Shown here: piece by piece, positions 7,436 to 13,306 of the stretch | How positions within the stretch are numbered: position 1 is the first letter of the stretch | Layout: each line of letters begins with the position of its first letter | From: Medakamo hakoo | Lineage: Eukaryota; Chlorophyta; Trebouxiophyceae; Coccomyxaceae | Assembly: GCA_026636295.1 (NCBI GenBank) | Contig: CP089463.1 | Location: 62,001-126,000 of the forward strand | Reading direction: 5' to 3' | Length of the DNA stretch: 64,000 nt | Position numbers and translations under genes: made by a program | The notes under the pieces: model-generated | Database searches by the model: none | What the model was told of the DNA's origin: nothing | What the model saw: the letters and a program-made list of their open reading frames with translations, nothing else

Positions 7436-9385
7436 TCAGGCCAGCGTAAACTCGGCGACCGGCTCGACGGCGGCCGCCGCGTCAGCCAGCACACCCGCGC
7501 CCGCGTCTTCCGGCACGCGGTTGGCCCGCTTGAACGTCCCGAAATCGTTGAAGCGCACGCCATTGGCCTTCAGCACCGGCAGCACGCGCGGCGCGATGAG
7601 GTGGCGCACGTAGAACGGGTCGCGCACGACAAAGTGGTGGATGGCGTGCGTCGCGCCAAAGCAGAAGCAGAAGAGCTGGGCGGGCCAGGTGGCCGGGTGC
7701 GTCCACACCTGCGTCTGGTTGAGCACGTCGCCGCGCCTGATGCCGTAGTAGTGGATGTTGGACGAGACGACGTGCAAGCAGAACGTGCGCAAAAAATTGG
7801 ACGCGCCAAACGCGGCGGCGTACGTGCGGACGCAGGCGTACAGGCCGGCCGTGCCCAGCAGGCCGGACCCGCCGGCGACGCCGGCCGCTTTCAGCGCCGC
7901 GTCCGCCAGGAAGGCGTACCACAGGCCGTAGTGAAGGCCGCCCGCGGGCAGGTAGCTCCAGAGCGCGTTGCGCAGCACGAGCGCGGCGCGCTGCGCCACC
8001 CACCCGCCCGGGTTGGAGCCCGGGTCGGCTTCGGGCAGCGACCGCGCGTACGCCCGCAGCTCGCGCATGCTCTCGTCCGGCCGCAGCGCGATGGCCAGCA
8101 GGTTGTCGCCCGTGCACGCCAGGCGGCGGGCGTCCCAGGCCATGCCGTTGGTGATGGCGCGCTCCTCCATGTCCGGCGGGCTGCCCGCGGCGGAGTGGTG
8201 GTTGAGGTGCAGGCGGCGGCGGGCCCAGGGGTTGATGGTCGACAGGCGGGGCGCGTAGACCAGGGCCAGCGCCGCGTTGACGGCGGCCGACCCGAAGCGC
8301 TTGGCAAAGTAGCAGGAGTGGATGAGGTCGTGCTCCAGCTCGTGCAGGACCGACTGCGCGAGTGCGGCCGTCACCACGGTCGCGGGCCAGCCCAGCGCGC
8401 CGGCCGCGAAGGCCGCGGCGACCGCGACATTGGCGGCCAGCGCGCCCACCAGCAACAGCCCGCCAATGACGTCCTGCGCCGGCTCCAGCCAGGGGTGGGC
8501 GGACCGCAGCGCGTCGCCCGCGTCCAGGACGGCGCGGCGGATGGCCCGCACCCGGGCGCGCGCGCCCTCGTCCGCCGCAGCCGCGTCCTGCTCGGCGAAA
8601 ACGGCGGCGGTGGAGCCCGGACGCAAGTCGTCTTCATGTTCGACGGGCGTGCCGGTCGACGAGATGGTGGGCGGGGACACGGGCGCGGACGCAGCCGTCG
8701 ACCGGCGGCGCACGCCGCCTGGGCGGTGGGCGCCTCCGTCCTCCTCCTCCGCGTCGGACGCGGCGCTGTCGTAGAAGAGTGCTTCAACGTGGCGGCGTTT
8801 GAAGAGCGTGGTCAGGCCCAAGACGACGGGTTTGGGCAAAGGGATGGGCCGCCTAGTCGTTGAGGCGGCGGCGGCCGTGGTGGTCGGCCGGGCGGCCGGC
8901 CGGGCGGCGACCTGGTGTGGGGCAGACGGGCGGGTGGGCGGGGGGTGGGAACATGTGAGAGCGCGGGGGGGGAATGAGGGAGGCGTCCTTGGTCCCTAGG
9001 CTGACCGGCGTGCGGGTCGAGCGTGGTAAAATGCCGCCCAGGCCCGCGGCGGGACGTGGCCAGGGCGATGGACGGCCAAGAGGCAGCGCCAACGCGTCGC
9101 GCGCTCTCTGCCGCGTGGGGAGCGCGCGCGGCGGCGGCGTGGAAACGGGGCGCCCCCCGTTCGCGACCGGTCAAGGCGACGCACACACCACGCCCTCCCC
9201 GTCAAACACAGGCCCACATGCGCGCTCCCTCGCCCAGCTGGACCGATTGACCGGCGACGGCGTGGGGAGCCGGCGTGGTCGGCGTTTTGCAACGACGCCG
9301 CGCGCGGGCGATTATGGGGAGCCGGTGCTGTGCTTGGGCCCGACCACGAAGCAGCCGCGCCACCCCAGCCTGCCTCACTTACCAT
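7436..9385 (-). CDS. Membrane fatty-acid desaturase-like protein (three His boxes)
   Basis: Diiron membrane oxidoreductase of the fatty-acid desaturase superfamily, proposed 492 residues. The main exon is 8911-7436. The upstream part has no ATG in frame, but a CCACACCAG acceptor at 8912-8913 opens the frame in phase 0. A perfect GTAAGT donor follows an ATG at 9385-9383, so I propose a first coding exon consisting only of the start codon. The three metal-binding clusters are HELEHDLIH, HLNHH and HAIHH, with hydrophobic segments before box 1 and between boxes 2 and 3. The first about 120 residues are Ala/Ser/Asp-rich and not conserved-looking. Substrate cannot be inferred; no cytochrome b5 domain is seen. 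The fold call is firm, the start is not. Confidence 0.85.
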
Positions 9386-9518: not shown

Positions 9519-11520
9519 TCAACCACCACGCTGCGACCGCACGCGCCCGGCGCCCGCCCCCCCTCCTCCCTCCGCCTTGTCCCCTTCCACGACTTTTTTG
9601 CCGATGTCAAGGGCCAGCAAATCGGTCGCGATCAAAGTCGTGCCTTTGAAGGCAGCTTTAGCGGCTTCGCCCGCGGACGACCGGGCGTCTTGCGCGGGGG
9701 GCAGGCGCGTGAGCACGACCGTGGTGGGCGTGCCGGCAGCCGCGGCGGCCGCGCCCACCGCCGCCGCCGCGGCGCTCCCCCCGCTCCCGACGCCCGCGAC
9801 CACGACGTCCACGCCTTCCACGGCGCAAGCCAAGCCGGCGGACGCTCCCCCGCTGCCTCCTCCTCCTCCTCCTCCGCCGCCGCCGGCCACCGGCCCCGCG
9901 TCGCCCACGACCGCGAGCCGGCGGCCGGGCACGTCGGGGGCCATGACCTCGTGCGGCTGCACAAACCGGCCGTCCCACATGGTCTGGACGGGCTGCCCCG
10001 CTTTCAGCATGCCCATGGCCCGCCCCGGCGAGACGCCCAGGGCCAGGGCCGCGTCCGCGTCCAGCCGCCCGGCCTTGTCGGCTTCGACGACTGTGTACGC
10101 GAGCGTGGGCGGGGGGGGCGTGGCGGCGGCGGGCTCGCCCCCCGCCGCCCCGCCCAGCAGCACCGCCCGGACAGCCAGGTCGTCCGCGAAGCGCAGGGTC
10201 CACGCCGGTGGCGTGCCCGGCGGCAAGACTCCCGTCCCAGCCCCAGGCCAGGTCAGCGGCCGGTAATCGGACCGCGGGTCGTTGCCGCGGCCGGGCCCGC
10301 CCGACGAAAACCGGCCGCGCCCGCTGCGCCCGCCACGGCCGCGCCGCCCGTCGTCCTCTTCATCGTCCGCGCCTGGGGAGACGTCATAGTATCCCGCGGC
10401 GTTGAAGGCGTCCGGCCGCAGGCGGGACACGGTCAGGCGGGAGCGGCGGGCGAGGCGCGCGCGCGCGGGCAGCGCGCCGCCCGACGCCGCGGTCCGCTCG
10501 CCCTCATCCCACGCGCTCCCGCTCCCCGGCGGTGTCAGCTCGTGGACGTGGATGGGCATGCACATGAACGTGTCGGACAGTAAGAGCATGCGGCTGAGGC
10601 GCGCGTGTGTTTTTTTTCGTTTGGTGGTGGAAGAGGGTCAAAAACGTGAGGCAAGGCGGAGCGCCCCCATCCACCCATCCACCCGCCCCACCCCGCCCTG
10701 AAAAAAAAAACGGAAAAACAAAAGCCAACGCACTTTAGGTACTCGGCCACGCCCGGCGGGCCGAAAACGTGCACAGGTAAAACCGCTGGTGCGCCACCGC
10801 CTTCCTCCTCATCCACGCGCGCCGCGGACGCGATGCAAAGGATGCCGGGCAAGCCCGCGAGCGTGGGCGCGGCCGCGCCGGAAACAAACATGGCGTCCAA
10901 CCGCCCCGCCTTCACGAGGGGCGTCCGCGCCAGGGCGCGTTGCGTGTCTTCGCCGACGTCAAAGAGCCAGGTGCCGCGGACGGTGCGCAGGGCGAGGGAG
11001 GGCGAGCCACTGGTGTGTGGTTTTGGTCGAGGCGTTGTTGGGCGTGAGAGGTGTGTGGGGTGGGGGTGGGGGTGGATGGAAAGCCGGGATGGAGCACGCC
11101 CCGCCCCCTCTCTGCCTCTCACCATCCCGGCAGCGGTGGCGCCGTGCCCGTTCCCAGAAACAGGAGTTGCATGCCCGCGCCGTTGCACATGGCTTGCGTG
11201 GACGTAGGGTCGTCGACGGGGATGACGGGTGCAGGGGGTGGAGGGCCCGGTTGTGGTGGCGGCGGCGGCGGCGGCGGCGGTGCGGCCTCTGCCGCCGCCC
11301 GTCCCTCGGTCGCCGCCACTATTCCGACCAGCGACACGGGCAGCGGCCGGCCCATCCTACGCGTGCGTGTGGATGGTGCGAGCGCCGGCGCCAGCCAGGC
11401 GCGGCGGGCGTCGGAAGGATGGGAGGCATGCGCTGGCAGCTCTCCTGGCCGTCGCGAGCGGCGAGGTGTCGAGCTCACCGCCGCCGCAGCCAGGCGCCGG
11501 GCGGCGCGGAGGTGTCGCAT
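9519..11520 (-). CDS. RNase Z-like metallo-beta-lactamase fold protein lacking metal ligands
   Basis: Predicted 582 residues from exons 11520-11123, 11009-10734 and 10593-9519. The junctions rebuild LPGCGSPSLALR and AEYLNRMLLLSD in correct phase. The family layout is clear: MQLLFLGTGTA, WLFDVGEDTQRAL, LAGLPGIL, VHVFGPPGVAEYL and MPIHVHEL match the tRNase Z/ELAC order. However, the HxHxDH site is replaced (FVSGAAAPTLAGLPG, residues about 174-187), GDT has become GDA, and the later HEAT and H-S-T ligands are absent. It therefore cannot bind zinc in the usual way and is best read as a pseudo-enzyme, like the inactive N-terminal half of long RNase Z. The first about 60 residues are Arg/Ala/Ser-rich and may be an organelle leader. 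All exons are intact. Confidence 0.8.
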
Positions 11521-11900
11521 CTACGCGCGGTGCCCGACTGTCGGACGCTTCCGACAAGAGACCTGCCGAAAGAGGTCGGCCCGGCTATTGCTCTCCGTGT
11601 GACACACAAAAAAACATTCTGCTGCTGGCCGCTCTGGGTCTCTGCCGGGGCCGGCAGAGACCCAAAATAAGAACACACAGAGGTGTGTTCTTGTGGGTGC
11701 GAGGAAGCCGCGCCCCTCCCACCCTCCCGCAACCCGCAACCCGCCCTCCGACCGCCCTCTTCCCCGCGCGACGGGCAGGACAGGGCTCACTTCACGCGCC
11801 CGCCCATCCAAACCGGGCGTCAGAGGCGCCCAGTCCCCGCCAGCGGGCAAACCCTCTCTGCGACCGAGCGAGACACACGAGCGCGCCCCGACGTGTTTCA

Positions 11901-13306
11901 ATGCCCGACGTGTGCCTGGCCACGCGCGCCCTGGCGGGCCGCGCCACGCCTCGGCTGCCCCCGCGCCGGGTGCACGGACCGCGGCGCTCCGTACGCGTGG
12001 CGGCGGCGCCCAAAGGTACGTCGTCCGCCCGCGTGTGCGGCCGTCTCGGAGGGGAGGGGGCCGAGCGCGCGCCGCGCGCGGCGCTCGCCTTCCGCCGTCG
12101 CCGCGTGCTGACGCAACGACCTCCCCCCTCCTCCCTCCCTCCCCCCCCCCTCCTCGAAACACACCAGGCGACGAGCCGCCCCACCCCATCCCCGCCTCCA
12201 TCGCCGACGTGTCCAACGGCCAGATCTTGGGCTTTGGCGCCGACCTGGCCCCCGACCACCCGGGGTTCGGGGACGCCGCGTACGCGCGCCGGCGGGCGGC
12301 CATCGCCGACGCCGCGCGGGCGCACGTGCCGGGCAGCCCGCCCCCGCACTGCGCGTACACGCCCGCGGAGACGGCCGTCTGGGCCGAGGTCCTGACCCGG
12401 CTGGGCGGGCTGGCGCCCGCGTCGGCGTGCGCCGAGTATTTGGCCGCGCTGCCGCGCCTCGCCTTCACCCCGGCGTCCATCCCGCAGCTGGCGGACGTCG
12501 CGGCCACGCTGAAAGCCGAAGGCTCGTCCTGGAGCATCCGGCCCGTGGCGGGGCTGATGCACCCGCGCGACTTCTTGGCGGGCCTGGCCTTCCGCACGTT
12601 TCATTCAACGCAGTACGTCCGCCACGGGTCGCGGCCGGACTACACGCCCGAACCGGACGTGTGCCACGAGGTGCGTGCCGCGGACGCGGACTGGATGGAA
12701 ATGGGATGGATGGGTGGCCACCACCCCCTCACGCCCCCCCCCCCACACACACACAAACAGCTCATCGGCCACGTGCCCATGCTGCTCGACAAGGACTACG
12801 GCGACATGGTGGCGGCCATGGGCGTCGCGTCCCTGGGCGCGCCCGACGCGGCCGTGTGGCGCCTCACCCGCGTCTACTGGCACACCGTCGAGTTTGGGGT
12901 CGTGTTGGAAGGCGACGCAAAAACGCCCAAGGCGTTCGGCGCGGGCATCCTCTCCTCGCCCGGCGAACTGGCCCACTTCGCGTCGGGGGTCGCGTCCCTG
13001 ACGCCGCTGGACCCGTGGGCGGCGCTGCCCCGCATGGCGTACAAGGAAGGCTACCAGACAAACTATTTCACGCTGCCGTCGTTTGCCGAGGGCGCCGAAC
13101 TGCTGCGCGCGTACGCGGCGGAGACGACGCCCGCGGACGTGCGGGCCCGCTTTGGGCTGGTGGGGCTGGGAGCGGGGCGGCTGGTGCCGGACACGGCCGC
13201 GGTGGTGAGCTCGTCCGTCGTGCCCGCTCCCGGCGTGGCCGGCGTGGCGACGCCCGTGGCGGGCGGCGAAGCGGCCGCGGGCGCGGCGGGCGCGGCCGCG
13301 CCTTAG
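11901..13306 (+). CDS. PAH: Phenylalanine 4-hydroxylase (aromatic amino-acid hydroxylase), plastid-type
   Basis: Non-heme iron enzyme converting phenylalanine to tyrosine. Exons 11901-12015, 12168-12670 and 12761-13306 give 387 residues. Conserved blocks: ADLAPDHPGF, IPQLADVAATL, RPVAGLMHPRDFLAGLAFR, HSTQYVRHGS, YTPEPDVCHE, LIGHVPML, VEFG and FGAGILSSPGEL. The iron ligands are the two His of CHE..LIGH and the Glu of HTVEFG; intron 2 falls exactly between CHE and LIGH. No N-terminal ACT regulatory domain is present. The leader (MPDVCLATRALAGR...SVRVAAAPK) is typical of a plastid transit peptide, and its end coincides with exon 1. Moss and green-alga relatives are plastidial and folate-dependent; the cofactor here is inferred. 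The tail after the domain is Ala/Gly-rich. Confidence 0.95.

Follow-up and report, generated by a model that had tools for sequence, protein, structure and literature searches.

A short RNase Z homologue of Medakamo hakoo with a lost catalytic centre and a retained flexible arm: a candidate subunit of a proposed two-gene tRNase Z

A minus-strand gene of the ultrasmall trebouxiophyte Medakamo hakoo, at positions 9519-11520 of the analysed window (a 64-kb stretch, G000:C4:62001-126000, of a 15.6 Mb genome in 16 contigs), has three exons and codes for a 582-amino-acid protein, a short RNase Z homologue of full length. Its catalytic centre has been lost, while the flexible arm is kept. With moderate confidence, we propose a heterodimeric tRNase Z in which this protein is the non-catalytic subunit that binds the substrate, the likely partner being a short RNase Z encoded on contig C2. 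The proposal draws on the complementary sequence pattern of the two proteins, the modelled fold of the arm, and the intact catalytic motifs of the C2 protein.

Gene structure and the catalytic centre

The rebuilt gene model has an open reading frame with exons in phase, as described in the initial annotation of this sequence. Its features, in window positions, are the following:

11123..11520, minus strand: exon 1, Arg/Ala-rich leader, then a Pro-rich stretch, then MQLLFLGTGTAPPLPG
11010..11122, minus strand: intron 1, 113 nt, GTGAGA...CACCAG
10734..11009, minus strand: exon 2, WLFDVGEDTQ (Motif I, kept), SGAAAPT replacing S/T-HxHxDH, GLPGIL, VFGPPGV
10862..10879, minus strand: codons at the HxHxDH position, reading G-A-A-A-P-T
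10594..10733, minus strand: intron 2, 140 nt, GTGCGT...CCTCAG
9519..10593, minus strand: exon 3, MPIHVHEL strand, long RG-rich insertion, flexible arm, GDA, AGVG (HEAT position), LTR (LTH position), C-terminal strand, stop
9918..10103, minus strand: flexible arm (exosite), LAYTVVEADKAGRLDADAALALGVSPGRAMGMLKAGQPVQTMWDGRFVQPHEVMAPDVPGRR, the tRNA-elbow-binding module, kept
9900..9902, minus strand: Asp of the GDT motif (now GDA), the sole metal ligand of seven retained

A search against PDB sequences returned ELAC1 as the best match (E=3e-28), with ELAC2 at only 0.008, and profile and sequence comparison confirmed the assignment to a full-length RNase Z. The homology begins at ELAC1 residue 1, within exon 1, where MQLLFLGTGTAPPLPG forms the first beta strand and the GTG loop, with a Met at 11172. 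The protein has a single domain and the adjoining frames belong, by eye, to other genes; it thus lacks the two-domain organisation of a long tRNase Z. The coding frame was the best of six by codon usage in exon 2 (+0.18) and exon 3 (+0.20), where all other frames were negative, and an exon of the neighbouring gene used as a control scored higher (+0.41). In exon 1 the coding frame was also the best of six, yet negative (-0.23), so that neither the leader nor the true start codon is certain; candidate starts lie at 11520, with an in-frame stop directly upstream, and at 11355. By its composition alone, the Arg/Ala-rich leader would most simply be read as an organelle-targeting peptide.

The divergent plus-strand neighbour (window 11905-13306) resembles, by eye, an aromatic amino acid hydroxylase (...DVCHELIGHVPML), and its introns are of the same type by eye (GTACGT..CCAG, GTGCGT..ACAG). 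Two perfect inverted repeats lie side by side between the two genes, at 11635-11692, the first with 14-nt arms (TGGGTCTCTGCCGG/CCGGCAGAGACCCA) and a 2-nt gap, the second with 10-nt arms (AAGAACACAC/GTGTGTTCTT) and a 4-nt gap; when the 81-bp stretch was searched against the genome by a method that skips common words, no other copy was listed. The downstream neighbour on the same strand (7436-8839, minus) resembles, by eye, a fatty-acid desaturase-like membrane protein with the His boxes HELEHDLIH, HLNHH, and HAIHH.

The HxHxDH positions were indeed found to be G, A, P, and T (H63, H65, D67, and H68 in B. subtilis-type numbering), H269 is replaced by R, and H140 by a non-His residue (G in the alignment to bacterial RNase Zs). 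The claim that every metal ligand had been replaced holds for six of the seven ligands of an active short tRNase Z; the exception is D211, the Asp of GDT and itself a metal ligand, which is still Asp although the motif now reads GDA. The reported changes at the HEAT and LTH positions were likewise recovered: HEAT reads AGVG, the LTH position reads LTR, and the His of HST, which with HEAT characterises active short forms, lies in a deletion. The PxKxRN motif has kept Pro and lost Arg and Asn (one of three conserved columns). Only seven His residues occur among the 582, none of them at a metal-site position. The protein thus falls under the definition of a tRNase Z-like protein (TLP) given in PMC3161902, a tRNase Z homologue without at least one motif needed for activity. 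An alternative exon supplying HxHxDH, which would have overturned the initial reading, could exist only if the motif were split by an intron, since no uninterrupted codon pattern for it occurs anywhere in the 64-kb window.

Selective loss and the retained arm

To describe the loss by position, we took 79 bacterial RNase Zs (80 fetched, one dropped by a length filter) and scored the 50 columns with at least 95% conservation among them in four classes, namely catalytic (10), PxKxRN (3), flexible arm (7), and elsewhere (30). The columns kept, in this order, are:

Window protein: 1/10 (the Asp of GDT), 1/3, 6/7, 20/30
N half of the genome's own long RNase Z: 2/10, 1/3, 6/7, 16/30
C2 short RNase Z: 10/10, 3/3, 0/7, 22/30
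C half of the genome's own long RNase Z: 10/10, 3/3, 0/7, 22/30

The window protein keeps one of 10 catalytic columns against 27 of the 40 remaining ones (Fisher p=0.0027), and the arm differs from the catalytic columns at p=0.0037. Exons 2 and 3 together comprise 448 codons with no premature stop, which has P=0.0016 under neutral saturation in a simple estimate at this GC-rich composition that ignores indels. Such sparing of the arm would not be expected from plain neutral decay, and these figures support the earlier view of a pseudo-enzyme that appears to be maintained, not of a dead gene.

The arm aligns to ELAC1 183-260, to E. coli 145-217, and to positions 145-214 of the bacterial HMM. 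Both the arm and the GP motif of active short tRNase Zs are present, the latter in the variant form SPGR where PPGP is expected, which counts against the heterodimer proposal. An AlphaFold2 model of exon 3 alone, built from an alignment with 20 bacterial relatives, placed the arm (model residues 161-230) at pLDDT 84-96; the moderate mean of 65.8 reflects low scores in the long RG-rich insertion and in other loops. Foldseek with this model gave 437 matches at E<=10, and the eight at E<=0.001 were all RNase Z or ELAC2 chains. In other systems, ELAC2 with its arm deleted no longer processed the 3' ends of two mitochondrial pre-tRNAs in vitro (PMC11996679), and fly tRNase Z without the hand of the arm had a Km increased almost 100-fold (PMC3714273). 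On the sequence evidence, the retained flexible arm, missed by the initial annotation as was the Asp of GDT, is the key to the function of the window protein.

Other RNase Zs of the genome and a proposed two-gene enzyme

The genome was searched by family and by codon pattern, and each of 60 exact HxHxDH codon sites was inspected by eye. Three of the 60 lie in an RNase Z context, and candidates for the active HxHxDH copy that the initial annotation had proposed to look for are a short form, a long form, and a long-like protein:

G000:C2:878466-879542 (locus L010, G000:C2:876966-880295): short RNase Z, one uninterrupted 663-aa frame
G000:C3:96322-98505: canonical long RNase Z
G000:C4:1262878-1263573 (locus L012, G000:C4:1261765-1265073): long-like RNase Z

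Two further genes, L039 (G000:C4:323397) and L061 (G000:C13:583730), encode HSHTDH metallo-beta-lactamases that are SNM1-like by eye, lie on separate contigs, and are nearly identical across roughly 116 compared residues.

The C2 protein carries THLHGDH, HEAT, HST, LTHFSGRY, and PTPARN, and has no arm: Motif III (QHRVPCWGYALSE) is followed by 11 residues and then by KVVLLGDT, and the stretch GYALSEVGGGDAGPPPRKVVLLGDT leaves no space for one. In the alignment to ELAC1 (6e-28), both catalytic parts were matched and the arm was skipped. The AlphaFold model of the C2 protein, with a mean pLDDT of 62.6 and core blocks mainly at 73-91, is likewise armless, one hairpin leading straight into the GDT strand, and the best Foldseek match by E-value was ELAC1. 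A small HeH/LEM-type domain, which we take to be SAP-like, precedes the RNase Z core at residues 126-154 (Pfam HeH E=0.0011, below the cut-off) and could possibly act as a nucleic-acid-binding tether.

The conserved columns are divided between the window and C2 proteins as they are between the N and C halves of the long RNase Z on C3. On these counts, the two genes appear to split their functions like the long-form halves, which suggests that the two proteins act as halves of one enzyme; the organisation that defines a long tRNase Z, with the arm in one domain and catalysis plus PxKxRN in the other, is found here across two genes. If such an enzyme follows the known geometry of the RNase Z homodimer, the window protein would grip the tRNA elbow with its arm, the tRNA 3' end would thereby be placed in the active site of the C2 protein, and two chains would do the job of the one-chain long RNase Z (ELAC2/Trz1). 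The interface between the two domains of the long form is similar to that between the subunits of short-form dimers (PMC5646807). An organelle would be the most likely place of action, because both N-termini look, by composition, like organelle-targeting leaders. We infer for the pair expression, dimerisation, tRNA binding, cleavage, and organelle location. The location of the two genes on different contigs (C4 and C2) counts against the proposal, and since a complete long RNase Z is also present, the pair need not be essential. The idea of a partner or regulator of an active RNase Z, raised in the initial annotation, has thereby become a specific proposal in its partner part, given that an armless, active-looking short RNase Z occurs in the genome; its regulator part is kept as a rival.

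As a tRNA-binding regulator, the window protein would dimerise with itself into an inactive form and, with no fixed catalytic partner, grip the elbow of mature tRNA or pre-tRNA, and would protect or store tRNA or compete with an active RNase Z. A binding-only pseudo-enzyme, with the arm kept and catalysis gone, would be a natural competitor, but this explanation leaves unaccounted for the armless catalytic copy with the mirror pattern in the same genome, and we consider it rather unlikely.

The window protein could instead serve another armless catalytic protein, in particular L012, whose C half keeps 9/10 catalytic columns (HxHxDH, HEAT, and LTH among the motifs retained) and 1/7 arm columns, and whose N half has 3/7 arm columns and no GP-like motif recognisable by eye. 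L012 may thus be a further candidate needing an arm in trans; however, its own second beta-lactamase domain already fills the partner position, which makes this pairing improbable.

A function unrelated to tRNA ends, with the arm kept merely for fold stability, would have parallels in Synechocystis sll1036, a tRNase Z-like protein inactive as tRNase Z in vitro according to the available text of PMC3161902, and in the further substrates on which RNase Z can act (PMC12663964). We hold it to be doubtful, given that the arm is an extruded module dispensable for the core fold, being absent from the C2 protein and the long-form C half. The lost metal ligands, the poly-Gly and poly-Pro tracts within the frame, the poor codon score of exon 1, and the scores of exons 2 and 3 below that of the neighbouring gene could point to an algal short RNase Z gene that is decaying into a pseudogene. 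This reading is very improbable in view of the concentration of loss in catalytic columns (p=0.0027), the 448 codons without premature stop (P=0.0016, neutral saturation), and the codon usage of exons 2 and 3, where the coding frame outscores the other five.

Relation to known systems and origin

Like the N half of long tRNase Z (ELAC2/Trz1), the window protein has a beta-lactamase fold without the catalytic ligands and has lost PxKxRN, and it keeps the same number of arm columns as the N half of the genome's own long RNase Z; unlike that half, it is free-standing and unfused, and its sequence is closest to short ELAC1. With the ELAC1 or bacterial type it shares domain order, arm position, and arm length, but differs in the loss of six of seven ligands, HEAT, HST, and most of PxKxRN, and in the long RG-rich insertion ahead of Motif III.

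The initial annotation considered a free-standing inactive copy unusual, which is not fully supported, since TLPs, also free-standing tRNase Z relatives missing activity motifs, are described in the available text of Fan et al. 2011 (PMC3161902) as occurring widely among green algae and basal land plants, and were judged there most likely to lack tRNase Z activity. Many of them, according to that text, have no arm and keep the other motifs; the C2 protein resembles these in being armless with its remaining motifs kept. The main text of that paper stresses the armless, catalysis-keeping type, does not describe an arm-keeping, catalysis-lacking short form of the window type, and nowhere uses the word "heterodimer".

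Four Basidiomycota, as far as the available text of PMC2942849 goes, have two short tRNase Zs per genome, one of them armless, as in the window and C2 pair, and heterodimers resembling long tRNase Z were proposed for these paired forms. The idea of paired short forms is therefore already in print. In the same text, no GP motif is recognisable in the arm-bearing fungal partners, and nothing there calls them catalytically dead, whereas the division between the window and C2 proteins is complete except for one Asp.

In trees of 17 to 18 sequences, which have long branches and poor sampling and include human rows assembled from printed alignments, the window protein grouped with long-form N halves (UFBoot 96; 90 and 84 in further trees) and the C2 protein with long-form C halves (UFBoot 97; 94, 96, and 91 in further trees). 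When the arm columns were removed, the window protein shifted to ELAC1 at 56, and a 13-taxon tree no longer joined the C2 protein with the C halves. The AU test rejected none of the alternatives (p=0.0998 for the window and C2 proteins as sisters). On these sequence comparisons, the pair could be a pre-fusion relic, the product of a later function-dividing duplication, or the outcome of two separate histories. Two scans of viral contigs for relatives of the pair found none.

No description of a pair with a catalytically dead arm-bearing partner was found in the open-licence literature. If the proposed pairing is correct, what would be new here, within the already proposed concept of paired short forms, is that the arm-bearing partner is itself catalytically dead.
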